64,000 nucleotides of DNA from positions 62,001-126,000 of the forward strand of contig JADFDQ010000004.1 in the NCBI GenBank assembly GCA_018262705.1. The letters run 5' to 3'. The notes beneath the pieces were generated by a model that saw nothing but the letters and a program-made list of their open reading frames with translations, made no database searches and was not told the origin of the DNA. How positions within the stretch are numbered: position 1 is the stretch's first letter; each line of letters opens with the position of its first letter. The stretch is from Xanthomonas sp. (GTDB lineage Bacteria > Pseudomonadota > Gammaproteobacteria > Xanthomonadales > Xanthomonadaceae). Below are positions 3,470 to 34,028 of the stretch, piece after piece. A program made the translations under genes and the position numbers.

Positions 3470-3534
3470 GTATCCGCGGGTGGGTAGCGTCGCAAACGCA
3501 TCCGCGCGGCCCACACCGCCACTGGAGCCCCGAC

Positions 3535-6021
3535 ATGAGCCCCGTTCTCAGCGCTTCCCTGCCCTTCCTCGCCGTTTTCGCGATCGCCGCGTTCTGCGCC
3601 TACCACCGCCTGCGGTTGGCGGTCTGGGCCGCGATCACCGCCACCGCGCTGCTCGCCTGCTGGCTGCTCGGCGCCAATCAGCTCGCCATCTGGATTGCCG
3701 CCATCTTCGTGGCTGTGGTCGCCGTGCCGCTGCTGATTCCGCCGCTGCGCAAGCCGCTGCTGTCGGCTCCGGCGCTGGGCTTCCTGCGCAATGCGCTGCC
3801 GCCGCTGTCGCAAACCGAGAAGATCGCGCTGGAAACCGGCTCAGTGGGGTTTGAAGGCGATTTGTTCAGCGGCAAGCCGGACTGGAACAAGCTGCTGAAC
3901 CACCCCAAGCCGCAGCTGAGCGCCGAAGAACAAGCCTTCCTCGACGGCCCGGTGGAAACGCTGTGCACGATGATCGACGACTGGGACATCACCCACGTCC
4001 GCGCCGATCTGTCGCCGGAGGTCTGGGACTACATGAAGCAGCAGCGTTTCTTCGGGATGATCATTCCGAAGGAGTACGGCGGCTTGGGATTTTCCGCGCT
4101 GGCCCACCACAAGGTGATCCAAAAGGTCGCCTCGATCAGCTCGGTCGCCAGCGCCACCGTCGGCGTGCCCAATTCGCTCGGCCCGGGCGAGCTGATCCAC
4201 CGCTACGGCACGCAAGAACAGAAAGACTACTACCTGCCGCGACTGGCCTGCGGCCAGGACGTGCCCTGCTTCGGCCTGACCGGCCCGTTCGCCGGCTCCG
4301 ACGCCACCTCCATTCCCGATTTCGGCATCGTCTGCAAGGGGGCGTGGAACGGCGCCAACGTGCTGGGCCTGAAGCTCACCTTCGACAAGCGCTACATCAC
4401 GCTGGCGCCGGTGGCGAGCCTGATCGGCCTGGCCTTCCGCATGTACGACCCGGATCACCTGCTGAGCGACACCCGCGACATCGGCATCACGCTGGCGCTG
4501 CTGCCGGCCGACACGCCGGGGGTCGAAGTCGGACGCCGCCACTTCCCGCTGAATTCGCCGTTCCAGAACGGGCCGATCCACGGCAAGGAAGTCTTCATCC
4601 CGCTCAACCAGCTGATCGGCGGCGTGGACATGGCCGGCAAGGGCTGGAACATGCTCAACGAATGCCTCGCGGTGGGGCGCTCGATCACCCTGCCCTCCAC
4701 CGCCAGCGGCGGCGCCAAGGCCGGCGCGGTCGTCACCGGCGCCTACGCGCGCATCCGCAAGCAGTTCGGGCTGTCGGTGGGTCGTTTTGAAGGCGTGGAA
4801 GAAGCGCTGGCGCGGATCGGCGGCAAGGCCTACGCAATCAGCGCGTTGTCGCAGGCCACCGCCGCAGCGGTGGATCGCGGCGACGTGCCTTCGGTGCCGT
4901 CGGCGATCGCCAAGTACCACTGCACCACCGCCGGCCGCGACATCGCCAAGGACATCATGGATGTGATCGGCGGCAAGGGCATTATCCTGGGCCCGCACAA
5001 TTTCGCCGGACGCTCGTGGCAGGCCGCGCCGATTGCCATCACGGTGGAAGGCGCCAACATCATGACCCGCAGCCTGCTGATCTTCGGCCAGGGCTCGATC
5101 CTGTGCCATCCGTACATCCTCAAGGAAATGCGCGCAGCGCAGGACCCGGACGCCAAGGCCGGACTGGCGGCGCTGGATGCGGCGCTGTATCCGCACATCG
5201 GCGGGGCGATCTCCAACGCGGTGCGCTCGCTGTGGTTCGGGCTGACCGGATCGCGCCTGCAGTCCGTGGCCGGCGATGACTACACCCGGAAGTTCTTCCG
5301 CAAGCTCAATCGCTACGCCGCCAATCTCGCGTTGCTCACCGACGTCTCGCTGGGCGCGCTTGGCGGCCGGCTGAAGTTCAAGGAATCGCTGTCGGGGCGG
5401 CTGGGCGATGTGCTCAGCCATCTGTACATGATGGGCGCGGTGCTCAAGCGCTATCACGACGAGGGTAGCCCGGAGGCCGACAAGCCGCTGCTGGCCTGGG
5501 CCTTCCACAACAGCGCCTATGAAATCGAACTGGCGCTGTCGCAGGCGCTGCGCAACTTCCCGATCAAGCCGCTGGGCTGGCTGCTGTGGCCGCTGGTGTT
5601 CCCCTACGGACGCCGTGCGGTGGCGCCGGGCGACCGCCTGTCGCACCGCGTGGCCAGCCTGTTGATGAACCCCAACGAAGCCCGCGAGCGGCTGGCGCAG
5701 GGCGTGTTCCTCACCCCCGGCGCGCACAATCCGGGCGGACGCATCAACAGCTATCTGGAAAAGGCGATCGCCGCCGAACCGGTGGAACGCAAGTTCCTCA
5801 AGGCGCTCAAGACCAAGGACATCGAGGCACTGGACTTTGCCTCGCAGCTCGACGAAGGCGTGCGCGAGGGCTGGATCACCCAGGATGAGCGCAAGCAACT
5901 GGAAGAGCTGCGCGTGTTGACGCTGGACACCATCACGGTGGACGACTTCGACCCGCACGAGCTGCGCGCGGCGAGCTATTACGACCTGCAAGCGCCGCGC
6001 GAACGGCGCGCGGTGGCCTGA
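3535..6021 (+). CDS. fadE: Acyl-CoA dehydrogenase, FadE type
   Basis: FAD-dependent first step of fatty-acid beta-oxidation, making trans-2-enoyl-CoA. At 828 residues it has the long FadE layout. Two or three hydrophobic segments (about 1-65) anchor it to the membrane. A standard acyl-CoA dehydrogenase core runs from about 110 to 500 (IIPKEYGGLGFSALAHHK; CFGLTGPFAGSDA; VIGGKGI). The extra C-terminal domain typical of FadE (DUF1974) ends with PGDRLSHRVASLLMNP and a long helical tail. GGAG precedes the ATG. The next gene starts 3 bases after the stop and is an acyl-thioesterase-like protein, so the two are probably co-transcribed. Confidence 0.95.
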   Translation: MSPVLSASLPFLAVFAIAAFCAYHRLRLAVWAAITATALLACWLLGANQLAIWIAAIFVAVVAVPLLIPPLRKPLLSAPALGFLRNALPPLSQTEKIALETGSVGFEGDLFSGKPDWNKLLNHPKPQLSAEEQAFLDGPVETLCTMIDDWDITHVRADLSPEVWDYMKQQRFFGMIIPKEYGGLGFSALAHHKVIQKVASISSVASATVGVPNSLGPGELIHRYGTQEQKDYYLPRLACGQDVPCFGLTGPFAGSDATSIPDFGIVCKGAWNGANVLGLKLTFDKRYITLAPVASLIGLAFRMYDPDHLLSDTRDIGITLALLPADTPGVEVGRRHFPLNSPFQNGPIHGKEVFIPLNQLIGGVDMAGKGWNMLNECLAVGRSITLPSTASGGAKAGAVVTGAYARIRKQFGLSVGRFEGVEEALARIGGKAYAISALSQATAAAVDRGDVPSVPSAIAKYHCTTAGRDIAKDIMDVIGGKGIILGPHNFAGRSWQAAPIAITVEGANIMTRSLLIFGQGSILCHPYILKEMRAAQDPDAKAGLAALDAALYPHIGGAISNAVRSLWFGLTGSRLQSVAGDDYTRKFFRKLNRYAANLALLTDVSLGALGGRLKFKESLSGRLGDVLSHLYMMGAVLKRYHDEGSPEADKPLLAWAFHNSAYEIELALSQALRNFPIKPLGWLLWPLVFPYGRRAVAPGDRLSHRVASLLMNPNEARERLAQGVFLTPGAHNPGGRINSYLEKAIAAEPVERKFLKALKTKDIEALDFASQLDEGVREGWITQDERKQLEELRVLTLDTITVDDFDPHELRAASYYDLQAPRERRAVA

Positions 6022-6024
6022 CCG

Positions 6025-6489
6025 ATGCCCTCCGTGCTCGCCCTGTACCGACGTCTCGCCGGCTGGCCGGCGGGGCGCTGGCTGTTCTCGCGGCTGGTCT
6101 GCCTGAAAGCGCCGTATTTTTCCAGCATCGCGCCGCGCATCGTGACGCTGGAACCGGGCCGCGGCATCGCCACCCTGCGCCACCGGCGCGCCGTCACCAA
6201 CCACATCGGCACCGTGCACGCGATCGCCCTGTGCAACCTGGCCGAATTTGTCGGCGGCCTGACCTGCGATGTCAGCCTGCCGGCGTCGATGCGCTGGATC
6301 CCCAAGGGCATGACCGTGGCCTACCTGAAGAAAGCGGCCGGCACGATGCGCGCCACCGCCACCCCGGCGTTCCCGCCGCGTGAGGCGAAGGAAGGCTACG
6401 ACTTGCCATTCGAGGTGGTGGTCGAAAACCCGGCCGGCGAGGCGGTGTTCAAGGCCAGTATTGCGATGTGGGTGACGCCGAAAGCCTGA
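6025..6489 (+). CDS. Hotdog-fold protein, DUF4442-type putative acyl-CoA thioesterase
   Basis: A 154-residue single-domain hotdog protein. The central helix is visible as NHIGTVHAIALCNLAEFVGGL (about residues 55-75), followed by the strand-rich half GMTVAYLKKAAGTMRATA. Proteins of this group (PaaI/DUF4442) hydrolyse or bind acyl-CoA. It begins 3 bases after the fadE stop, which supports a role releasing CoA during beta-oxidation. The exact substrate is unknown. Confidence 0.82.
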   Translation: MPSVLALYRRLAGWPAGRWLFSRLVCLKAPYFSSIAPRIVTLEPGRGIATLRHRRAVTNHIGTVHAIALCNLAEFVGGLTCDVSLPASMRWIPKGMTVAYLKKAAGTMRATATPAFPPREAKEGYDLPFEVVVENPAGEAVFKASIAMWVTPKA

Positions 6490-6843
6490 TCAGGCCCAGC
6501 ACAACGCCGCCAGCGCCGCCAGCGCCGGCACGCCCTGGACGAAGAAAATCCGCCGGTTGACGCTGTGCGCGCCGTACAGTGCGGCGACCACCACGCAGCC
6601 GAGGAAGAACAGCGCCAGATCGTGCCGCGCGCTCACGGCGGCCCAGACCAGGCCGGCGGCAAGGAAGCCGTTGTACAGGCCTTGGTTGGCCGCCAGCACG
6701 CGGGTGATCTCGGCCTTCTCCGGGGAGTTGCGGAAGGTCTTCAGGCCCAGTGGCCGGGTCCACAGGAACATCTCCAGCACCAAGAAATACAGGTGTAGCA
6801 GCGCCACAACGGCCAGCAGGCCCATTGCCAACATCGACATCAT
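6490..6843 (-). CDS. DUF1304 family small membrane protein
   Basis: A 117-residue protein with four hydrophobic segments (about 3-22, 47-67, 73-90, 98-116). The family pattern is visible in LEMFLWTRPLGLKTF near residue 23 and ANQGLYNGFLAAGLVW near 50. Function is not established for the family. The ATG at 6843 overlaps the TGA of the upstream transporter (ATGA), and ACCGGAG lies just before it, so it is translationally coupled to that gene. Confidence 0.85.
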   Translation of the reverse strand: MMSMLAMGLLAVVALLHLYFLVLEMFLWTRPLGLKTFRNSPEKAEITRVLAANQGLYNGFLAAGLVWAAVSARHDLALFFLGCVVVAALYGAHSVNRRIFFVQGVPALAALAALCWA

Positions 6844-8204
6844 CCATTCTCCGGTTGGGTGCGCCCGTTCGGCAGTTTCTTCGCTTCGCCCACCACCTTC
6901 CAGGCACCCAGGGTCATGCCGACGGCGACCAGCAGCCCGGCGCCGAACACGACCTGGGATCCGAAGCTCGACAGCAGTTTGTGCAGCCAGACAAAGGTCA
7001 GGTCGCCGCCGCGGTAAACCACGGTGTCGATCGCCGCGCCGGCCTTGTAGCGCCACTCGCGCGCGACCCGCGTGTAGATGGTCTCGCGCGCCGGCTTGGA
7101 CAGACTGAACTCACTGCCACGGGTGACAACCTGCACCACGGCCACCAGCAGCGGCAGCGGTGAGGCGGCCAGCGCGGCATAGCCGAGGATGATCGCGCAG
7201 GCCGGAATCAGCAGCGCTGGGGCGATGCCGAAGCGGGACAGCAGCGTGCGGGTGACGAACAGCTGCACCAGCAGGGTCAGCGCGTTGACTGCCAGATCGA
7301 TATTGGCGTAGTACGCGGTCGCCTGCTGCGGATCGGGATAGAACTGTCGCACGATGGCCGCCTGTTCGTTGTACAGCAGCGTCCCCACGCCGACGCCGAA
7401 CACGGTCAGCAGCGCCATCCACCGCAGCAGCGGTTCGTGCGCCAGCAACTTGAGTCCCGCCAGCACGGTTCCGCCCATCGGCGTTTCACCACTGGCGAGC
7501 TGGTGCCGCTGTTCGCGCTGCACGGCATGGTGGCGCAGTCGCAGCAAGCAGATGATGCACAGCACCAGAAAACCGGCCGACACCAGCATCAGGTGGGCGA
7601 TACCGATGCGTTCCACCAGCGTCCGCGTCAGGATCGGACCGAGGATCGCGCCCAGCGTGCCGGCGGCACCGATGTAGCCGTAGCAGCGGCGCGCTTCGAC
7701 GTCGCTGAACAGATCGGCCATGAAGCTCCAGAACACCGCTACCGCGAACAGGTTGAACACCGTCACCCACAGGAAGAACGCCATCCCGCGCCCCGGCACG
7801 CGGCTGTCGAACAGCAAAAAAAACAGAAGCAGGGTGGCGATGAAAAAGCCGTAGACCACCGGCAGGAACACCCGCCGCGGCCAGCGGCTGACCAGCCAGC
7901 CGTACACCGGCTGCAGCGCCAGCATGATCAGGAAGGTGCATGTGAAAAGTACCTGCAGCTGCAACTCCTTGAGCGCCACGCCACGATCGGCGAAGAGGGC
8001 GATCATCGCCGGCGGGAACAGCGCGCTGACGTCGCTGGAGGCGCCCATCGCTTCGCGCACCGGCCGCAGCACGTAATAGCCGGTGAGCAGGCAGAAGAAA
8101 TACAGGAACGACCATAGCAGCGGCGGGAAGTCGCCCAGCGCGGCTTTGAAGCGGCCGATTCGACCGGATCCGGCAGTGCTGTCGATCATGTGCGCTTGGG
8201 TCAC
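6840..8204 (-). CDS. MFS-fold transporter related to NTP/NDP exchangers
   Basis: An integral membrane protein of 454 residues with about twelve hydrophobic helices. The N-terminal signature SFLYFFCLLTGYYVLRPVREAMG (about residues 31-53) is typical of proteobacterial proteins annotated as MFS or Tlc-like nucleotide exchangers. The charged loop SKPARETIYTRV near residue 370 is another recurrent feature. The substrate is unknown; nucleotide exchange is known for the plastid and intracellular-parasite branch but cannot be assumed here. The start is uncertain: GTG at 8204 or ATG at 8189, neither with a clear ribosome site. It overlaps the DUF1304 gene by 4 bases. Confidence 0.85.
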   Translation of the reverse strand: MTQAHMIDSTAGSGRIGRFKAALGDFPPLLWSFLYFFCLLTGYYVLRPVREAMGASSDVSALFPPAMIALFADRGVALKELQLQVLFTCTFLIMLALQPVYGWLVSRWPRRVFLPVVYGFFIATLLLFFLLFDSRVPGRGMAFFLWVTVFNLFAVAVFWSFMADLFSDVEARRCYGYIGAAGTLGAILGPILTRTLVERIGIAHLMLVSAGFLVLCIICLLRLRHHAVQREQRHQLASGETPMGGTVLAGLKLLAHEPLLRWMALLTVFGVGVGTLLYNEQAAIVRQFYPDPQQATAYYANIDLAVNALTLLVQLFVTRTLLSRFGIAPALLIPACAIILGYAALAASPLPLLVAVVQVVTRGSEFSLSKPARETIYTRVAREWRYKAGAAIDTVVYRGGDLTFVWLHKLLSSFGSQVVFGAGLLVAVGMTLGAWKVVGEAKKLPNGRTQPENG

Positions 8205-24796: not shown

Positions 24797-26608
24797 ATGG
24801 AATCCCCCGCCCTCGCCCAGCTTCGCCGCACCTTCGGCTATGCCAGCTTCCGTGGCGAACAGGGCGCCATCGTCGAACACGTGACGACCGGCGGCGACGC
24901 GCTGGTGCTGATGCCCACCGGCGGCGGCAAGTCGCTGTGCTACCAGCTTCCGGCGCTGCTGCGCGCGGGTACCGCCATCGTCATCTCGCCGCTGATCGCG
25001 CTGATGCAGGATCAGGTCGAAGCGCTGCGCCAGCTCGGCGTGCGCGCCGCCTTCCTCAACTCCAGCCTCGATGCCGCCGGCAGCGCGCAGGTGGAGCACG
25101 AGCTTGTCGCCGGCGCGTTCGACCTGCTCTACGTGGCGCCGGAACGCCTGCTGACGCCGCGCTTCCTGGCACTGCTGGAGCAAGCAAAGATCGCCCTGTT
25201 CGCGATCGACGAAGCCCACTGCGTCTCGCAGTGGGGCCACGATTTCCGCCCGGAATACCGCCAACTCAGCCTGCTGCACGAACGCTGGCCGCAGGTGCCG
25301 CGGATCGCGCTGACCGCCACCGCCGACGCGCCGACCCGCAGCGAGATCGTCGAACGCCTGGCGCTGGGCGACGCCCGCCAGTTCATCAGCTCGTTCGACC
25401 GCCCCAACATCCGCTACAACGTCGTTGCCAAGGACAACGGACGCCGCCAGCTGCTGGACTTTCTCGTAGGCCATCGCGGCCAGGCCGGGATCGTCTATTG
25501 CCTGTCGCGGCGCAAGGTGGAGGCGGTCGCCCAGTTGCTGGTCGAACGCGGTTTTCATGCGCTGCCCTACCACGCCGGATTGAGCGCCGGCGTGCGCGCC
25601 CAGCACCAGCGCCGCTTCCTGCGCGAGGATGGCGTGGTGATGGTCGCGACGATTGCCTTTGGCATGGGCATCGACAAGCCCGACGTGCGCTTCGTCGCCC
25701 ACCTCGACCTGCCCAAGTCGATTGAAGGCTATTACCAGGAAACCGGGCGCGCCGGCCGCGACGGCGACCCGGCCGAAGCATGGCTGGCCTATGGCCTGGG
25801 CGACGCGGTGCTGCTGCGCCGGATGATCGCCGAAGGCGAAGCCGGCGAGGAGCGCAAGCGGCTGGAGCACGCCAAGCTCGACGCCCTGATCGGCTATTGC
25901 GAATCCACCGCCTGCCGCCGCCAAAGCCTGCTGGCGTGGTTCGGCGAAGCCCATCCCGGCACCTGCGGCCACTGCGACAACTGCCTGCAGCCGCCGCAGA
26001 CCTGGGACGCCACCGAGGCCGCGCGCAAGGCGCTGTCCTGCGCCTACCGCACCGGCCAGCGCTTCGGCGCCGCGCACCTGATCGACGTGCTGCGCGGCGC
26101 CGATACCGCCAAGGTTCGCCAATTCGGCCACCAGTCCCTGAGCACCTTCGGCATCGGCGCCGAACTAGACGCCAAGCGCTGGCGCGGGGTGTTCCGACAG
26201 CTGGTCGCGGCCGGCCATCTGGACGCCGACGTCGCGCGCTTCGGCGCGCTGCGCCTGACCGCCAGCGCCAGCGCGCTGCTGCGCGGCGAGCAATCCCTGC
26301 ACCTACGCCTCGACGCCGCCAAGCCCAAACGCGAACGCGAACGCAGCCGCAGCGCCGGCCTCACGCCCACCGCCGAACTGCCCCCCGAAGCCAGCGCCCG
26401 CTTCGACGCCCTGCGCCAGTGGCGCAGCGACACCGCGAAAACGCAGAACGTCCCCGCCTACGTGATCTTCCACGATGCCACCCTGCGCGGCATCGCGCTG
26501 GAACAGCCCCGCGACCTGGACGCACTGGCCGCCATCGGCGGCGTCGGCGTCGGCAAACTGGAGCGCTACGGCGAAGCGGTGTTGGCGGTGCTTCGCTCCA
26601 GCGCTTGA
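24797..26608 (+). CDS. recQ: ATP-dependent DNA helicase RecQ
   Basis: 3'-5' helicase of 603 residues in recombinational repair. Walker A is [16 protein letters not shown], motif [21 protein letters not shown], motif [14 protein letters not shown]. The zinc-binding cysteines of the RecQ-C region are in CESTACRRQ and CGHCDNC. A winged-helix and then the HRDC domain (about 520-600) complete the standard order. The ATG at 24797 begins just before the helicase core; an upstream GTG at 24758 is less likely. Confidence 0.97.
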
Positions 26609-26639
26609 ACGCGATCAGCCGCGGGCGCGGGCGTCCGGC

Positions 26640-28988
26640 TCAACCCACGTTGACCGGTACCAGCGTCATGCTGTCGTTGCCGAAGATGTCCACCACCTTG
26701 ACCGCCACGATGTAACGCCCCGGCCGGTCGTAGCTGTGCTCGGCGGTGGTCAATTCGAGTTCGCGGTTCTTGCGGGTGCGAAAGCTCTGCCATTCGTTCT
26801 CGAAGATGTAACCGCCGGTCCAGCGTTCCTCGAACTCCAGTGGCATGTCCTGCTGGCCGTGTTCGAAGCCGGGCAGCACCGCCACCTCGCCGTGCGCCAG
26901 ATGGGTGGGCACCTTGATGATTTCCTTGCGGTTCTGGTAATCGAAGTCCACCGCCCAGTAATCCACCCAGTCGGTCCAGTGTTTGGTCAGCACATCACGC
27001 TTGACCGCGCCGTCCTTGTTCTTGCTGATCTTGAGCAGTTGTCCGGCATCGCAGATCACCGCGCTCTTGCCATCCTTGAGCGCGGCAATCGCCGCCTCGG
27101 CCGCACCCTGGGTGTAGTAGACGGAAAAATCGGTGAGTTCGATGGCGACGCGCAACTTGTCTTTCGCCGACCTGCCCTTGGCGTAGCGCGGGGTGGCCTC
27201 GACGAAGGAAATGTCGTGGAAGACCACTTGCCCCTTGTCCACCGCGCGCTTGTCGAATACCTCGGCCGGGATGTACTTGGGGGTCAGGTCGATGCCCTTG
27301 CCCTTGGCCTCCTCCAGCACCGCCGGGAACAGGCCCATCTCGAACTCGAACGCGAGTACATCGACGCGGGTGGCGCCGCGCTTGCGGCACTCGGTGATGA
27401 CCTCCTCGACGAACAACCGCCCGACCGGCAGGTTGATCGGACCTATCACGACCAGCCGGCCGCCGTGCTTGCCGTGGAAAAAGCCGTCGTTAGCCAGCGG
27501 CTCGCCCTTGTAGGCGCGCAGGATCAGCTCGCGGAATTCAGCTTCCTTCGCGAGCAGCGCCTGTTCGCGCTGTTCGGGCGACAGCCGCCCGCCGACGTTG
27601 AGGTAGGCCTGGCGCTCGTAGCGGCCGAGGTTGAGCACTTCGAAGGCGCGGAAGGGCTTGTCGGCGGCTTTCAACTCGCGCTGCACGCCGATCAGGCGCT
27701 TGCGGGTGGTGTGGATGCCGAACTTGCCAAGATCGGTGGCGATCCACCTGCGGCCGAGCTTTTCGGCGACGGCGGCGGTGGTGCCGGAGCCGCAGAAGAA
27801 ATCGGCGACGAGGTCGCCTTCGTTGCTGCTTAGCTTGATGATCCGTTCAAGCAAAGCTTCCGGCTTTTGGGTTGCATAGCTCACCGCCTCTTTTGCTTGC
27901 GAGTTCACCGCGTTCAAGTCATCCCAAATATCTTGGACTGGGACACCAGGCATCTCATCAAGATATCGCTTGTAGCGCGGCACAGCTCCTTCACTCGGCT
28001 GGACAATTCGGCCCTCCTGATACAACCGTTCCATCGTTTCGCGCGAGTAGCGCCAAAAGCGTGTGACTCCCAAAAACTCGTAACTTGGGTTGCCTTTGGC
28101 CGAACCACCCGGACCAATGATGTTGTCCAGCTCATAGCGTCGTCCGCTCGCGGGCTCGATCTTCTTGTAGTGGGTCTTCAGGTACTCGCCAGAGTAGGAG
28201 CCGTATTGCATATTCCACGGATACTGATCGCCCTTTGCGTAAAGCAGAATCACATCATGTAGCCGGCCCAGATGCTCAGAACCCTGGCCACTGTCGCTAT
28301 GTGCGGTCTGTCGCTTCCAGATGATTTCGTTGACGGCGCGTTGCTTGCCGAACACTTCATCAAGCAGGCCACGCACGTAGTGGGACACTGCCCAACCCAT
28401 GTGCACATAGATGCTTCCTTCCGGATGCATCAAATCCCGCATCAAAATCAACCGCTCATAGATCATGCTGATAAAACTATCCGCCCCGCGCCCCCAGGTA
28501 TCGCGGTAGGCAATCTGCTCCAAGAGATTCGGCTGCTTGTGGAAGGTCTCGCCGCCGATCTCGATATCCATCGAAAAATCCGCGCCGACATCGAACGGCG
28601 GGTCGATGTAGATCAGCTTCAGGCCACCGGCATCCTCGATCTGGCGGCGCAGCGCACCGGCCTTCAACGACGACAAGATCAGCTTGTTGTCGCCCCAGAT
28701 CAGCTTGTTGGTCCAGCCCTGGGTCTGCCGGCCGCGCGCATCGAACAGTTCGGCTTGCGCGCGCGTCTCCTCGCGCGGTTCGTCCACATGTTCCAGGGTC
28801 TGAAACGGCAGCACCGCCGTGCAGACATCGGCGCTCTTGCCGTTCCACACCAGCTCCACCTCGCGCTTGTCCTCGAACAGCAGGAAGCGGTACTTCTCCG
28901 GCAGCGGCTTGCCGGTGCGAATCAATTCGGTGAGGTCGCGCTTTTCGGCGTCGGACAGCTCGTAGGCGGGCTTGGCGGGTTTGCTCAT
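26640..28988 (-). CDS. mod: Type III restriction-modification system DNA methyltransferase (Mod)
   Basis: N6-adenine methyltransferase of the beta class that also gives the Mod-Res complex its DNA specificity. 782 residues. Catalytic motif IV is DPPF (129-132). The variable target-recognition region spans about 225-370. Motif I follows as FFCGSGTT (397-404), the circular order expected for type III Mod. The target-recognition stretch is visibly poorer in GC (31 of 60 bases in 27841-27900) than the C-terminal half (39 of 60 in 27301-27360), suggesting an exchanged cassette. The ATG overlaps the Fic gene stop by 4 bases. Transcription runs res, fic, mod. Confidence 0.95.
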   Translation of the reverse strand: MSKPAKPAYELSDAEKRDLTELIRTGKPLPEKYRFLLFEDKREVELVWNGKSADVCTAVLPFQTLEHVDEPREETRAQAELFDARGRQTQGWTNKLIWGDNKLILSSLKAGALRRQIEDAGGLKLIYIDPPFDVGADFSMDIEIGGETFHKQPNLLEQIAYRDTWGRGADSFISMIYERLILMRDLMHPEGSIYVHMGWAVSHYVRGLLDEVFGKQRAVNEIIWKRQTAHSDSGQGSEHLGRLHDVILLYAKGDQYPWNMQYGSYSGEYLKTHYKKIEPASGRRYELDNIIGPGGSAKGNPSYEFLGVTRFWRYSRETMERLYQEGRIVQPSEGAVPRYKRYLDEMPGVPVQDIWDDLNAVNSQAKEAVSYATQKPEALLERIIKLSSNEGDLVADFFCGSGTTAAVAEKLGRRWIATDLGKFGIHTTRKRLIGVQRELKAADKPFRAFEVLNLGRYERQAYLNVGGRLSPEQREQALLAKEAEFRELILRAYKGEPLANDGFFHGKHGGRLVVIGPINLPVGRLFVEEVITECRKRGATRVDVLAFEFEMGLFPAVLEEAKGKGIDLTPKYIPAEVFDKRAVDKGQVVFHDISFVEATPRYAKGRSAKDKLRVAIELTDFSVYYTQGAAEAAIAALKDGKSAVICDAGQLLKISKNKDGAVKRDVLTKHWTDWVDYWAVDFDYQNRKEIIKVPTHLAHGEVAVLPGFEHGQQDMPLEFEERWTGGYIFENEWQSFRTRKNRELELTTAEHSYDRPGRYIVAVKVVDIFGNDSMTLVPVNVG

Positions 28989-30181
28989 GCCGGGTTCTCG
29001 TGGGTCGGCTCACCGAACAGGTCGATATACGCCTGGTATCGAAACACGCGGTTGCGGCGGTAGCCGGTCGCTTCCCGCAGGATGCCCTGCTCCACCAGCC
29101 GTGCAACCAGTTTGTTGGCGGCCGTGTAGGTGGTCGCGGTCAGGGCTTGCACGTCGGCCACCGCCATGATCGGGCGCTGGTAGAGGTTCTCCAGCACCTT
29201 GTGGCCATTGCCGGCAGCGCGCCCGAGACCTTCCGTCACCCGCGCTCGGTGATCCTCGCGCAGGGCGAGAATGCACCGCGCGGTGTCGGTGGCCTCGCGG
29301 CTGACGAAGGCCACGCCGCGTAGGAAGAAGGCCAGCCAGCCTTCCCAGTCGCCGTGATCGCGTACCGCTTGCAGGCGCTCGTAGTATTCGGCGCGATGGC
29401 GCTTGAAGAAGTGCGACAGGTACAGCACCGGTTTGCCCAGGATGTCCCGCTGGCAGAGCAGGAAGGTGATCAGCAGGCGGCCGACGCGGCCGTTGCCGTC
29501 CAGGAAGGGATGGATGGTTTCGAATTGCGCATGCGCGAGGCCGATCTGGATCAACTGCGGCAATTCGCTGTCGGCGTGCAGGAATGTTTCCAGCGCGCCG
29601 AGCGCCGATGGCACCTCGTGCGGCGGCGGCGGCACATAGGTCGCTTCGTTCAAGCTGCAGCCGGCCGGGCCGATCCAGTTCTGCGTGCGGCGCAGTTCCC
29701 CGGGCGTCAGCCGCGCGCCGCGCACGCCTTGCAGCAGGCGTTCGTGAATTTCGCGAATCAGCCGGACCGAGACCGGCAGCTCGCTCAGCCGCGCCAGGCC
29801 GTGGTTCATGGCGGCGACGTAATTGATGACCTCGACAACGTCACGCGGGCGATCCGGTGCCAGCACATGCGCCTCGGCGGCGAGCACATCCTGCAGCGAG
29901 CTCTGCGTGCCCTCGATCTGGCTGGACAGCACCGCTTCCTTGCGCACGTACATGAACACGAACAAGTCCGGATTGGGGAGGGTCTGGATCGAGCCATCCA
30001 GACGTCCCAATGCGCGATCCGCCTGCGACAGCAGGGTTTGCAGCTCGCCTTCGATCCGCACGGGCGGCCGCGGCGGCAGTGGCGAGGGCTGGAACGCCCG
30101 GTAGCCGGTGGGCTGGGCGATATAACGGCCGGCACGGTGCTGCAACGACCCGTCACGGGTGTGCGGATCCGGGGCGCTCAT
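28985..30181 (-). CDS. Fic family protein with C-terminal winged helix (type III R-M associated)
   Basis: 398 residues. Fic enzymes attach AMP (or another phosphate-linked group) to hydroxyl side chains of target proteins. The active-site loop HPFLDGNGR is complete at 224-232. An N-terminal inhibitory helix motif SSQIEG (86-91) matches the class II S/TxxxE(G/N) pattern, so the enzyme should be self-inhibited. Residues about 330-395 look like a winged helix (VADVQALTATTYTAANKLVARLVEQGIL). The gene sits between res and mod and its stop overlaps the mod start (ATGA), so translation is coupled. It has its own promoter with operator-like repeats. Target unknown; a regulatory or toxic role in the defence cassette is inference. 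Confidence 0.93.
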   Translation of the reverse strand: MSAPDPHTRDGSLQHRAGRYIAQPTGYRAFQPSPLPPRPPVRIEGELQTLLSQADRALGRLDGSIQTLPNPDLFVFMYVRKEAVLSSQIEGTQSSLQDVLAAEAHVLAPDRPRDVVEVINYVAAMNHGLARLSELPVSVRLIREIHERLLQGVRGARLTPGELRRTQNWIGPAGCSLNEATYVPPPPHEVPSALGALETFLHADSELPQLIQIGLAHAQFETIHPFLDGNGRVGRLLITFLLCQRDILGKPVLYLSHFFKRHRAEYYERLQAVRDHGDWEGWLAFFLRGVAFVSREATDTARCILALREDHRARVTEGLGRAAGNGHKVLENLYQRPIMAVADVQALTATTYTAANKLVARLVEQGILREATGYRRNRVFRYQAYIDLFGEPTHENPA

Positions 30182-30219
30182 GGAAGGCTGCCTTGCATAT
30201 GGCCTGAATTCCCTTTCAT
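30178..30219 (-). CDS. Possible 13-codon leader peptide overlapping the fic start
   Basis: The first ATG after the predicted transcription start (30219) opens a 13-codon frame, MKGNSGHMQGSLP, whose TGA overlaps the fic ATG as ATGA. Only a weak GAG lies 7 bases upstream. It may couple translation into fic or be chance. Confidence 0.2.
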   Translation of the reverse strand: MKGNSGHMQGSLP

Positions 30220-30222
30220 GTG

Positions 30223-30235
30223 AAACTCAGAGTTT
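30223..30235. promoter_or_regulatory. 13-bp palindrome at the fic transcription start
   Basis: AAACTCAGAGTTT is a perfect 6-bp inverted repeat around one base. It abuts the -10 element, so a bound dimer would cover the start point. Confidence 0.6.
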
Positions 30236-30265
30236 AATATAGGGCCCGTTTGTATCCATATGCAA
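30236..30265 (-). promoter_or_regulatory. Promoter of fic-mod
   Basis: Minus-strand TTGCAT (30260-30265), 18-base spacer and TATATT (30236-30241), about 50 bases before the fic ATG. It lies in the 153-base gap after res, so fic and mod can be expressed apart from res. Confidence 0.6.
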
Positions 30266-30334
30266 GGCAACCTGCAGGGTCGCCGTCGCGGTGCCAGCGG
30301 GTGCGCGCGACGCGTGCGGCCCGGTCGAGCGCGT

Positions 30335-33085
30335 TCACGTCTGGTATTCGGTGAAACCGGCGATGAGCGCCGCAAACGAGGCAGGCCGGTGGCTCTCGAA
30401 GCCGCGCTGGTCGACATAGGCGAAGCGGTAGGCGGGGCCACCCGCGTCCTTCAAGGCCGCGGTGGCTTCCTCGCACCACTGGCGCAGGCGCGCCATCTTC
30501 TGCGGCAGGTCAAGTTCCTCGCGGCCCTTGGTCTCGACGACCCAAACTGTTCCGTCCGGCGTTTTCACCAGGAAATCCGGCACGTAGTTGCTCAGATCGC
30601 CGTTGGCGCGCACGTAGTCGATCTTGAAGCCCACCGCGAGGTAGTTCTTGGCGAAGCTCGCCACGTCCGGGGCTTCGTCGAGGAACTTGCCGAAGCGCAG
30701 CTCGAAGCCGCCGCCGGTGGCCTCGGGCACCATCTTGTTGAAGATCGACTTCTTCGCCGGCAGGTACTCGCGGTTCTGCATGCGGAACGGCCGGGTGTTG
30801 CGCAGGCGGATGGTGTCCTCGATCCGGGAACTGCCGCCGTCCTTGACCGTGAGCGCATTGATCGCGGCCTTGAAGCGGTCGAACACGAGTTTGCCCGCCT
30901 CCGGTTCCGCCAGATTGCGCAGCACCACCGGAGCGTCGAGGTCGACCGGGGCGGCGACGAACAGATGGTTGCGCAGGAAGTCGCGCACCTTGGGATACAG
31001 CAGCTCGTAGCCACCGACCAGCCGGAGTTCCTTCAGCAGTTGCCGCGAAAAAAAGCCGACAACCGAGCGATGATCGGCCGGTCCCAGCCCGTCAAGCTGG
31101 ATGGTATGGTGGATTTCGCCATCGAGCATGGTCTTGAACACGATTTCCCGCGTTTCCTCGGGCGTGAACGGCTTGAGCGGCAGCGGCGCGTTGCCGAACG
31201 TGGACGGATCGAGGTCGGCCAAGTCCTTGTACTCGCGGTTGAAGCGGCGGCTGAGCTTTGGAATGGCGATGTCCAGCGCATCGAGGTCCTTGTCTTGGTT
31301 TTCGGCATCCACTTCCACCACCAGCGACTGTTCGCGACCGATGGCGCCCTTGCCCATCGGCTTGCGCTCGAACTCCACGCCTTCGCTCTGGATAGTCTGG
31401 ACGAACTCCATGAACGCATGGGTGCCCATCACCGACACGTACTCGGGCTGATCGCTGCCGCCGCCCGCGGCCTCGGCTGCGGGCGAGAAAAAGGGATACA
31501 TGCGGCGCAGGCCGCGGCCGAGGGTCTGCTCGGGCAGGATGTTGCTCTTTGACGTGTAGGCGCGCAGGCCGACGATGGTGGTGACGTTGCGCACGTCCCA
31601 GCCTTCTTTCAGCATCAGCACCGAGACGATGGCGCGGTAGCGGCTGTCCCAGCCGTCGATGGCGTTGGAGGCATTGCGCAGGACTTCCAGCTCTTCTTTC
31701 TTCTTGCCACTGGCGGCTTCCGAAATCTCGCCGTTTTGTTTGGTGTGGATCACCAGCACCTTGCGTTCCAGTTCCGGCGCGGCACGTTCGAGGTAGGCGC
31801 CCACCTGGTCGCAGTTTTTGGTGTCGTCCACCATCACGAACAGCACCGCCTTCTTGCCGGTCGTTTCGTGCTCGGTATAATTCTTGCGCCACTCCTCGAT
31901 GCCGAGATTGAGGTAATCGACGTAGCGCTCTTCGAAAATGGCGCTCGGTTGTTCCTGCAAACGCGCGATGCTGGCTTCGTCTGGCAACGTCGGATGCTTG
32001 ACCACGTTCTGAAAGATCGCTTCGACCAGCGGGTAGTCGGAGACGGTCTGGACGAAGATCGCGCCGTTGTCGTGCTTGGGCGTGGCGGTGACATCGATCT
32101 GCAGCGAGAGTCGGCCATCCTTCTGCAGCATCCGGTGATGGATGTCCTGGATCGACTTGAACCACGCCATGCGTTCGTCGTGAACGTGGTGGGCCTCGTC
32201 GTTGAAGACCGCCAGCTCGTCGATCTCGCGCACGATCTCGCCCAAATCGGTCTGGCTGTCGGTGGTCTTGCCGACCGGCTTCGGGCCAAACGGACTGAGA
32301 AAGTAATCGCGCAGGTCGTCATCGTCCGGCGACGGCTCCTTCACATCGCCCAGATAGACGCGATGGATGTTGGTCAGGAACAGGTTGCCGACCGGGCGCA
32401 CGATGCGCACCTCGTCCTGAATGTGCAGTGTGATCTGGAAGTCGTCGCGCCAGTTGCGGCCGTCGAAGCCGTTGTCGGGCAGCACCGGATCGTTGAAGAA
32501 GATCTTCAGGCCATCGAAGTCGGCGCGCAGGCGGTCGAGCACGATGATGTTGGGCGCGATCAACAGCATGTTGCGCGCAAGCGTGGAATCGGGTTCGTAG
32601 AGCTTGTGGAAATAGCTCCAAGCGATCAGCAGCGACAGCACCTTGGTCTTGCCGGTGCCGGTCGCCATCTTGGACACATAGCGCGGCCAGTCCTCCGGGA
32701 ACATGCCCGCCGACACCGCGCCGGAGGCATCGAAGCGCATCAGGTCGAATTTGTCGCGGGCCTTGCGAACGTCGTGCAGCCAGATGACGGTCTCGACGGC
32801 CTCGCGCTGGGCGAAGTAGTACCGGAATTCGGACAGGCTGCGGTCGGCCTGTTCGACCATGTGCTCGGTCTGGAACCACCAGCGCAAAAGCGCCAGTGAC
32901 GTGGCTGACGAGCCGGGATAGCCGGTTTCGCGCCAGGCGTCGACTTCCTCCCGGATATTGGCAACCAACGGCGGCAGCAGCTTCTCGTAGGCGATGCTGC
33001 GCAGGGCCTCGTCGGCGGGAAACCAACGCTGCTCCGGATGCGGAATTACGTACGGCGATGACGGAAAATCTGGATGCAGTGCCAT
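30335..33085 (-). CDS. res: Type III restriction enzyme Res subunit (DEAD/DEAH helicase-nuclease)
   Basis: ATP-driven translocase and nuclease partner of Mod that cuts when two unmethylated sites communicate. 916 residues. Helicase motifs: ATGTGKT (141-147), NDEAHH, TATPK and QTLGRGLRR. A C-terminal PD-(D/E)xK nuclease core is seen as VPDFLVKTPDG followed by VVETKG near residues 855-880. GAGGACAGGGG precedes the ATG. It is the promoter-proximal gene here, the reverse of the common mod-res order, and starts 62 bases after a tRNA-like fragment beside tRNA-Lys. Confidence 0.95.
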   Translation of the reverse strand: MALHPDFPSSPYVIPHPEQRWFPADEALRSIAYEKLLPPLVANIREEVDAWRETGYPGSSATSLALLRWWFQTEHMVEQADRSLSEFRYYFAQREAVETVIWLHDVRKARDKFDLMRFDASGAVSAGMFPEDWPRYVSKMATGTGKTKVLSLLIAWSYFHKLYEPDSTLARNMLLIAPNIIVLDRLRADFDGLKIFFNDPVLPDNGFDGRNWRDDFQITLHIQDEVRIVRPVGNLFLTNIHRVYLGDVKEPSPDDDDLRDYFLSPFGPKPVGKTTDSQTDLGEIVREIDELAVFNDEAHHVHDERMAWFKSIQDIHHRMLQKDGRLSLQIDVTATPKHDNGAIFVQTVSDYPLVEAIFQNVVKHPTLPDEASIARLQEQPSAIFEERYVDYLNLGIEEWRKNYTEHETTGKKAVLFVMVDDTKNCDQVGAYLERAAPELERKVLVIHTKQNGEISEAASGKKKEELEVLRNASNAIDGWDSRYRAIVSVLMLKEGWDVRNVTTIVGLRAYTSKSNILPEQTLGRGLRRMYPFFSPAAEAAGGGSDQPEYVSVMGTHAFMEFVQTIQSEGVEFERKPMGKGAIGREQSLVVEVDAENQDKDLDALDIAIPKLSRRFNREYKDLADLDPSTFGNAPLPLKPFTPEETREIVFKTMLDGEIHHTIQLDGLGPADHRSVVGFFSRQLLKELRLVGGYELLYPKVRDFLRNHLFVAAPVDLDAPVVLRNLAEPEAGKLVFDRFKAAINALTVKDGGSSRIEDTIRLRNTRPFRMQNREYLPAKKSIFNKMVPEATGGGFELRFGKFLDEAPDVASFAKNYLAVGFKIDYVRANGDLSNYVPDFLVKTPDGTVWVVETKGREELDLPQKMARLRQWCEEATAALKDAGGPAYRFAYVDQRGFESHRPASFAALIAGFTEYQT

Positions 33086-33146
33086 TGTCCCCTGTCCTCA
33101 AGACACTCACGGGCAAACAAGCTCGACTGTCGGATAGTACCTGCGG

Positions 33147-33218
33147 TGGTGGCTTGGCTGGGAATCGAACCCAGGACCAGCGGGTTGAGTCCGATTCGGA
33201 GACCGACTGCGGCCTGAG
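33147..33218 (-). pseudogene. Degenerate tRNA copy (3' half intact) next to tRNA-Lys
   Basis: Directly after the CCA end of tRNA-Lys lies a second tRNA-like sequence on the same strand. Its 3' half aligns closely with tRNA-Lys and keeps a perfect T stem (CTGGG/CCCAG), an acceptor 3' strand and CCA. Its 5' half still aligns in patches (CAGTCGGTCT, ATCGGACT) but the acceptor 5' strand and anticodon stem no longer pair. I read it as a decayed tandem duplicate or a recombination scar. Confidence 0.65.
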
Positions 33219-33294
33219 TGGTGGGTTGGGTGGGAATCGAACCCACGACCAGCGGATTAAAAGTCCGATGCTCTGCCGACTGAGCTACCAACCC
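33219..33294 (-). tRNA. tRNA-Lys (anticodon TTT)
   Basis: A 76-base cloverleaf: acceptor GGGTTGG/CCAACCC, anticodon stem TCGGA/TCCGC... around loop CTTTTAA, T arm GTGGG TTCGAAT CCCAC, discriminator A and an encoded CCA. It reads lysine AAA/AAG codons. Confidence 0.96.
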
Positions 33295-33332
33295 GTTGCA
33301 GCTGTGCCCGGCGTTGCGCCGGGGCGCGCAGT

Positions 33333-34028
33333 TTAACCGATGACGCCCGCTGCGTAGCGCGTGGGATCGGAAACGCCGGCGTCCGCGAATCCCTGCGCGC
33401 GCAGGCGACAGGCGTCGCAGTGGCCGCAGGCGCGACCTTCGGCATCGGCCTGATAGCAGCTCACCGTTTGCGAAAAATCGACCGCAAGGCGCAGCCCTTC
33501 GCGCACGATGTCGGCTTTCGACAGCGACAGCAGCGGCGCGTGGACGCGGAAGCGGCTGCCCTCGACGCCGGCCTTGGTGGCAAGGTTGGCCAAGGTTTCG
33601 AACGCGGCAATGAACTCGGGGCGGCAATCCGGATAGCCGGAATAGTCCACCGCGTTGACGCCGCAGAACAGATCGGTTGCGCCCAGCACTTCGGCCCAGC
33701 CCAAGGCGAGCGAGAGCATGATGGTGTTGCGCGCAGGCACGTAGGTCGAAGGGATTTCCCCGCCGATCTGGTGGCCGTCGGCATCGGTGGGAACCGCGAT
33801 ATCGGCGGTCAGCGCGGAACCGCCAAAGCTGCGCAGGTCCACGTTCACCGTCTTGTGTTCGATCGCGCCGAGCACGCCGGCGACGCGCAACGCGGCGTCC
33901 AGTTCCGACGTGTGGCGCTGGCCGTAGCGCACGCTCAGGGCGTGGGCGTCGAAGCCGCGCTCGCGGGCGATGGCGAGAACGACGGCGGAATCCATGCCAC
34001 CGGAAACGAGGACGACTGCTTTTTTCAT
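33333..34028 (-). CDS. queC: 7-cyano-7-deazaguanine synthase QueC
   Basis: ATP-dependent conversion of 7-carboxy-7-deazaguanine plus ammonia to preQ0 in queuosine synthesis. 231 residues. PP-loop [14 protein letters not shown] at the N-terminus, [19 protein letters not shown] in the middle and the zinc site near residues 190-205 ([17 protein letters not shown]). The ATG at 34028 begins [11 protein letters not shown]. It follows queE by 31 bases on the same strand. A 7-bp GC hairpin (33307-33323) lies between its stop and tRNA-Lys, without a clear T-run. Confidence 0.97.

Follow-up and report, generated by a model that had tools for sequence, protein, structure and literature searches.

Background

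Why does a gene for an intact Fic protein stand between the two genes of a restriction-modification (R-M) system, and does it belong to that system? The question arises from a stretch of Xanthomonas sp. DNA of 64,000 nucleotides (contig JADFDQ010000004.1, positions 62,001 to 126,000 of the forward strand), which we call the window and whose own numbering is used below. Read along the minus strand, it carries res (30335..33085, 916 amino acids (aa)), a gap of 153 base pairs (bp), fic (28985..30181, 398 aa) and mod (26640..28988, 782 aa). A preliminary description, made from the sequence alone, had seen here a 'reversed' type III operon in which the overlap of fic with mod made the Fic protein part of the defence unit and not a passer-by. 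Here we compare the locus with its relatives and find that the junction between res and mod is a slot with varied contents. We favour, with moderate confidence, the reading that Fic is an exchangeable guest in this cargo slot and most likely a back-up abortive-infection effector.

Results

Contents of the res-mod junction in relatives

The slot census was a single scan of genome contigs with Mod and covered the best 80 of 555 Mod relatives. Seventy-five of these loci carry both res and mod, and five lack a res match in the DNA examined. Classical type III operons have the order mod-res, and it is only against that order that the window operon is reversed; res stands first in 70 of the 75 loci and mod in five, making res-mod the usual order among these relatives. 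Measured as the distance between the Res and Mod matches without the stop codon, the gap in the 70 res-first loci is short in 26 (4–33 bp) and filled in 44, with inserts of 0.46–5.8 kilobases (kb); L060 and L061 are identical over the operon, one of them being a duplicate in these counts, and the slot boundary of L032 is uncertain. The last locus (3521-7905) has two mod-like stretches after one res, possibly a duplicated or partly replaced mod.

Thirty open reading frames (ORFs) from slot inserts were scanned with Pfam, ten of them also with PADLOC. The commonest guest combines SLFN_AlbA_2 and HATPase_c_4 domains (18 loci by clustering, two being duplicates of each other). Other guests include Bro-N proteins (four loci by clustering, one of them scanned positive and one scanned without a match), RhuM proteins (two loci), DUF3800 proteins (two scanned positive, one assigned by clustering, and L072 assigned by eye without a match), AAA_15/AriA-OLD-like ATPases (two), ParA beside AlbA_2 (three) and PIN proteins (two). 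We also found 23S-IVP, a nucleotidyltransferase with a helix-turn-helix (HTH) protein, DUF1828, an IetS-like peptidase S8, AAA_16 and DUF1016; seven of the 30 scanned slot ORFs had no Pfam match. Guest positions can be given roughly, since each start was taken from the longest ORF and some ORFs may be relics or arise by chance: 42 loci have a slot ORF of 60 aa or more on the same strand, the first start lies at most 20 bp from the res stop or overlaps it in 31 (by four bases in 19 of these), and in 10 of the 42 the last slot ORF ends at most 20 bp from mod, which is the arrangement of the window Fic.

Fic genes are among the guests. Three Nitrospira loci (L031, L050 and L095) hold a short Fic of 354 aa that is 26–27% identical to the window Fic and is preceded by an 80-aa fragment of a second Fic (L031, 6529-7832; L095, 6504-7807; likewise L050). 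Shortened Fic frames in L073 (6688-7437) and L032 (3062-3430) contain no Fic domain by Pfam. We considered the 80-aa ORFs and their two longer kin as a new antitoxin family and ruled this out, since each of the five matches the short Fic and proves to be either a piece of a Fic frame or such a frame shortened internally. A close relative of the window Fic was found in none of the other 75 loci with both genes (tblastn, E up to 1e-5); L059 has a 27% Fic match behind mod, outside the slot. The preliminary description had named a Fic gene found only here as part of what would refute its reading, and the outcome is split: a window-type Fic occupies the slot only here, but Fic as such does not, three short and two decayed examples being found in other loci.

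Outside this census, Res was found in viral contigs at one locus, L268, where the slot is empty. Among plasmids, only two records each for Res and for Mod contain 80% or more of the query at a single position; the one examined, from Aminobacter, has the order mod-res with an ATPase gene in front. A class-wide search with Res gave eight further loci, judged within 1.5-kb flanks and excluded from the slot counts, of which six have no Mod match and two (L262 and L263) have Mod before res.

Turnover of the cargo and the nearest relative of the framework

We counted changes of cargo on trees of the two framework proteins, after merging the Fic-fragment ORFs with the Fic guests. The cargo labels change 35 times on a quick tree of 72 Mod sequences (minimum 14; mean of shuffles 40.9, with 1 of 200 as low) and 26 times on a tree of 64 Res sequences (minimum 13; shuffled 35.7, with none of 200 as low). 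By these counts the cargo changes very often yet non-randomly. The four Nitrospira loci cluster on the Res tree, and the AlbA_2 guests are spread on the Mod tree as if at random (16 changes vs 16.1). Part of the signal in the Mod tree comes from the target-recognition region; this tree placed the window next to L016.

Compared in 60-aa steps, the Mod proteins of the window and of L174, a locus from the same family, are 36–59% identical within aa 180-360 and 83–100% identical outside this part, and the two Res proteins are 76–96% identical. Based on Res and on Mod outside aa 180-360, L174 is therefore the nearest framework relative among the loci examined, and the target-recognition region of the window mod (27909..28451, minus strand, about aa 180-360) has been replaced relative to it. 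The slot of L174 is empty: res ends with CAGGAGTCTTGA, and mod starts 2 bp past the res stop. In the window, res ends with CAGACGTGA, the AGGAG that precedes mod in L174 is lost, and mod starts inside the fic stop codon, with a weak GAGAA shortly before the start. Because AGGAG is lost and mod starts within the fic stop, Mod synthesis probably needs translation through fic, so that both products would be made together; re-initiation behind fic, we infer, is now the main route to translation of mod.

The overlap itself is real: fic stop and mod start share ATGA at 28985..28988 on the minus strand, as first described. It does not make Fic a part of the unit, since the slot of L174 is empty and the inserts in 44 of 70 relatives are mostly other genes. 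On the same grounds, together with the lack of a close Fic in the other slots, we rejected the idea that Fic is a fixed R-M component.

A further same-family genome (G280) has a piece of Mod at L193 6117-6506 (aa 566-695, 85% identical), near a contig end and with an in-frame stop; it is either a relic or a copy cut by the assembly.

Neighbourhoods of the Fic relatives

Strong relatives of the window Fic (E up to 1e-70) occur in 65 of 398 genomes of an order sample and in 46 of 398 of a phylum sample, the window's own genome being counted in both. We inspected 64 of the 119 other Fic places, mostly the better-scoring ones, with flanks of 1.5 kb for most and 6–7 kb for some. Sixteen have a type I gene at most 500 bp away, one (L191) lies by a type III pair, and 47 have no R-M gene nearby; neighbours were sought with R-M query proteins, so 'none' is a lower bound, and L116 and L146 rest on weak matches. 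In all 17 R-M-adjacent cases the R-M gene is on the same strand as fic. In line with the statement in the preliminary description that Fic genes are known near type I systems, Fics of the SoFic type are thus found repeatedly beside R-M genes. L191 (5896-11334) has a SoFic (45–49% identical) 14 bp ahead of a type III mod-res pair that scores 614 bits (MTase_III) and 735 bits (REase_III) in PADLOC and that Pfam also supports. The type I genes tested from L155 and L166 are supported by Pfam and PADLOC, those from L168 by Pfam alone.

The closest Fics (83–88% identical) stand either in hsdM-fic-hsdS-hsdR operons (L155 and L156) or where no R-M genes were found (L157-L159). The Fics of L155 and L156 are 86–88% identical to that of the window and have the same ATGA overlap, there with the type I gene hsdS; fic shares ATGA with the next R-M gene in L164 and L166 as well. 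As these Fics overlap hsdS likewise, the overlap shows how such guests sit and does not prove a dedicated partnership. The R-M context changes 11 times on the Fic tree (minimum 2; shuffled 16.4, with none of 200 as low). The Synechocystis plasmid pSYSX carries a SoFic-like gene inside a type I locus, on the strand opposite to hsdS, and the gene tables of the three other Fic-bearing plasmid matches examined list no R-M gene beside Fic. In L167 (6555-8158), a SoFic gene has a 4-base overlap with a gene that by eye resembles a MazG-type nucleotide pyrophosphohydrolase.

The three proteins

ORFs, Pfam, PADLOC and an alignment of 24 sequences agree with the earlier account of a Res and Mod pair enclosing a Fic gene with intact motifs, and confirm a minus-strand array in which an effector gene lies within an R-M operon on the same strand. 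Pfam matches above cut-off are ResIII for Res, Fic_N and Fic for Fic, and N6_N4_Mtase for Mod, and PADLOC assigns MTase_III (382 bits), SoFic (410 bits) and REase_III (73 bits). None of the three proteins reaches an NCBIfam equivalog cut-off. Because Res (257 of 800 bits for the BPTD_3080 restriction endonuclease equivalog) and Fic are far under these cut-offs, the label 'type III' rests on PADLOC, Pfam and architecture.

Fic is predicted to be a class II AMPylase. Its HPFLDGNGR (29486..29512, minus strand, aa 224-232) matches the catalytic signature HPFx(D/E)GN(G/K)R, and its SSQIEG (29909..29926, minus strand, aa 86-91) is the motif of an N-terminal inhibitory helix with the blocking glutamate E90. 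H224, P225, D228-R232, E90 and G91 are invariant across the 24 aligned sequences, the window Fic included. Judged by these motifs, Fic is intact and self-inhibited by design. The C-terminus is winged-helix-like in a structural model. The SoFic profile of PADLOC scores 409.6 bits (E 3.4e-123), although this model is broad, the short Fic of L095 also reaching 137 bits; the narrower NCBIfam equivalog ProtAdlyltaseSoFic gives 160 of 550 bits, which misses its cut-off. On these scores Fic is of the wider SoFic type and lies outside the narrow equivalog. A second Fic-domain gene in the window's own genome (L002, contig C3) is a short open frame of 145 aa, above the Pfam cut-off and without a tblastn match to the window Fic.

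Mod is a DNA adenine methyltransferase of the beta type, with DPPF before FFCGSGTT and an internal target-recognition region, this being the middle part that is swapped. A sequence search with Mod recovers type III Mod chains, EcoP15I among them. Res is a restriction subunit with an SF2 helicase (ResIII); its putative nuclease part is a TnsA-like/PD-(D/E)XK-like region (aa 806-873, about 30467-30670, minus strand) recognised from a match below the Pfam cut-off (23.3 of 26.5 bits) and from PD...ETK by eye. No PDB chain matched Res by sequence at E up to 0.1.

A control region in front of fic

The order res-fic-mod was described correctly, but res and fic are not contiguous: the intergenic region (30182..30334, minus strand) contains a conserved control region. 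About 90 bp next to fic are alike in the window and in L155-L159 (83–88% identity), despite different genes further upstream. Across the 20 sequences scanned, two palindromic sites, AACGC-T-GCGTT or AAGGC-T-GCCTT in form, are centred at −88 and −48 from the fic ATG and have on average 3.30 and 3.10 of 5 pairs, compared with 1.28 (sd 0.47) over 129 centres. In the window, the operator-like site A (30264..30274) is imperfect, with 3 of 5 pairs, and site B (30224..30234, AACTC T GAGTT) has 5 of 5. Between the two sites lies a −10-like box, TATATT (30236..30241, minus strand), recognised from alignments and absent from the consensus-scan list; the weak −35-like TTGCAT (30260-30265), 18 nucleotides before it, is overlapped by site A.

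We measured covariation within the two sites in 19 of the 20 sequences, leaving out L167 because its alignment is uncertain there. Paired cells amount to 72.6% (66.3% in shuffled alignments), cells changed on both sides to 17 (10.4) and the covariation score to 0.282 (0.196), each as high in 4 of 500 shuffles, and the score is at most 0.086 when the sites are slid; two measures were weaker, pairs changed on both sides (33 of 500) and pair types (100 of 500). These values are to be read with two reservations: the tool admits G-U pairs, which are meaningless for a DNA site, and relatedness among the sequences can lift values above those of shuffles. Swaps of G-C to C-G, in five sequences per site, are the clear cases. 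A third palindrome, AAGGC A GCCTT (30184..30194, centre −8), is poorly kept (mean 2.25 of 5 pairs in 16 sequences). A long inverted repeat in front of fic, matching at 17 of 18 positions in the window, was discarded as a feature because most relatives do not keep it; it is better read as repeated short palindromes, namely site A and the third palindrome next to the start codon. From this we conclude that fic moves together with its own region of putative operator sites.

The site of the island

The R-M island is flanked by tRNA-Lys/queC and recQ, with tRNA-Lys(TTT) (33219..33294, minus strand) upstream of res. Among 17 recQ regions from genomes of the same genus, tRNA-Lys and queC lie beside recQ in eight, and none of the 17 contains res, fic or mod in the stretch examined. 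Because of this absence, the R-M system was probably acquired at this site. A second copy of the 3' half of the tRNA lies behind tRNA-Lys(TTT), between the tRNA and res (33147-33218, minus strand). We rejected it as an att duplication from integration, since island-free genomes of the genus carry copies too: one in L229 (6717-7004) and, in L235 (1195-1602), an array of a 74-bp unit for which TRF gives 5.5 copies. The second copy thus tells nothing about the way in which the island arrived. The copies are reminiscent of the rtT repeats behind E. coli tyrT.

Discussion

The slot with its varied contents, the empty slot of L174, the SoFic motifs, the upstream palindromes and the ATGA overlap can all be read from sequence comparison. 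We infer from them that Fic inserted together with its own control region and became coupled to mod, and we can suggest how it would fire. In a healthy cell, Fic would be held low by operator-based repression, perhaps via its own C-terminal winged-helix domain, and would also be restrained by the inhibitory glutamate. A phage that blocks or outruns restriction might then release Fic, which would AMPylate an essential host protein and so stop growth. Of the three roles that the preliminary description suggested, such a back-up abortive defence is the likeliest.

Several published systems resemble this proposal. SoFic (or Sofic) is a class II Fic and a single-gene anti-phage system. Its relative EcSofic, reported as a phage defence made of one gene, has a toxic effect in E. 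coli that depends on the catalytic histidine and on a C-terminal domain acting through contact with the AMPylase domain (PMC12249575); the window Fic instead is enclosed by res and mod and overlaps the latter. In 2013, Fic/Doc and RhuM toxins in R-M operons were presented as further defence layers (PMC3710099), and PrrC in EcoprrI is a worked case of a toxin embedded in an R-M operon (PMC3710099, PMC12707154). PrrC, a HEPN nuclease, belongs to a type IC locus, whereas the present case is one fixed type III-like junction with interchangeable guests. DarTG2, embedded between hsdS and hsdR of a type I operon under the repressor RptR (PMC12255303), likewise places a toxin system, along with palindromic operator sites, within an R-M operon, but it is a toxin-antitoxin pair with a separate repressor gene and not a single Fic. 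Type I genes also surround the pneumococcal phd-doc, in which Doc is a toxin containing a Fic domain (PMC4257102). Back-up effectors of BREX include a combination of a Schlafen RNase, a minimal histidine kinase and a winged helix-turn-helix protein (PMC12839542), which recalls the SLFN_AlbA_2 and HATPase_c_4 domains of the commonest slot guest, although the host here is a two-gene type III-like R-M system. We found no description of this res-mod slot, or of SoFic in it, in the open-access literature searched, which is not proof that none exists. The back-up-effector principle is thus already in print for type I R-M and BREX, and a slot at a type III-like res-mod junction looks new.

Nevertheless, several points weigh against the reading of Fic as an exchangeable back-up effector. 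Turnover is not free, as the empty or filled state is clustered on both trees (13 changes vs 21.9 shuffled for Mod, 10 vs 20.5 for Res). Slot guests get replaced by kin and decay in place, so that guests also die there, and the slots of L023, L038 and L044 contain no convincing gene. SoFic can do without R-M, given the 47 of 64 relatives in which the queries used show no R-M gene nearby. Translation of mod may also be initiated independently, given the weak GAGAA. A consensus scan of the minus strand over 26400-33400 returned no sigma-70 promoter, the −35 being weak; that Fic binds the palindromes is a guess; and no AS1-like antitoxin gene was identified downstream of fic. Finally, the link of Fic as a back-up effector to phage defence or to the R-M enzyme is drawn from sequence.

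One alternative is that SoFic, as an independent gene for defence or addiction, landed where the operon tolerates it and has no functional link to Res or Mod. We consider this unlikely, although the conserved upstream region of fic itself, the close kin in L157-L159, the nearest relatives that manage without Fic and the decay of Fic guests in other slots would all fit it. Against it speak the R-M genes that adjoin 17 of 64 relatives, always on the same strand, the recurrence of the 4-base overlap with unrelated R-M partners, and the filled slots in 44 of 70 relatives. Alternatively, Fic might act through its winged helix and the upstream palindromes to set transcription of fic and mod and hence the ratio of modification to restriction. 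The covarying palindromes on both sides of the −10-like box, the position of mod downstream of this control region and overlapping fic, and the modelled winged-helix-like C-terminus are compatible with such a role, and a winged-helix Fic of another organism binds DNA and is stimulated by it (PMC10628234). This nevertheless seems improbable to us: relatives with an empty slot have no such regulator, the scanned guests share no common Pfam domain, the role reported for the EcSofic C-terminal domain in toxicity accounts for the domain without DNA, and the catalytic motif, needless for a mere regulator, is fully kept. A switch of Mod/Res activity, another role suggested earlier, is a proposal only. 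In its direct form, with Fic AMPylating Mod or Res and so turning restriction on or off, we regard it as very improbable; only adjacency and the overlap speak for it, and the occurrence of the same Fic type with type I, type III or no R-M genes makes a dedicated R-M target unlikely.

Returning to Fic as an exchangeable guest and back-up effector, we offer tentatively a wider version. The res-mod junction may be a permanent socket that accepts suicide effectors from any of a dozen unrelated toxin-like families, which are joined to Res or Mod through an overlap of stop and start; a single R-M chassis would thereby be re-armed repeatedly. The SoFic guest would bring a palindrome-controlled promoter and take over the start of mod, with the consequence that no methyltransferase would be made without the toxin.

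The question thereby shifts from the Fic of one operon to a rule, namely that one position in an R-M family collects back-up effectors, its contents changing far more often than a single origin per guest family needs. If so, the slot is a list of candidate anti-phage effectors, several of them without a known family, and the relatives with empty slots are natural controls. It would also put to a sharp test the older view of R-M systems as carriers of a second defence line, triggered once restriction is blocked.
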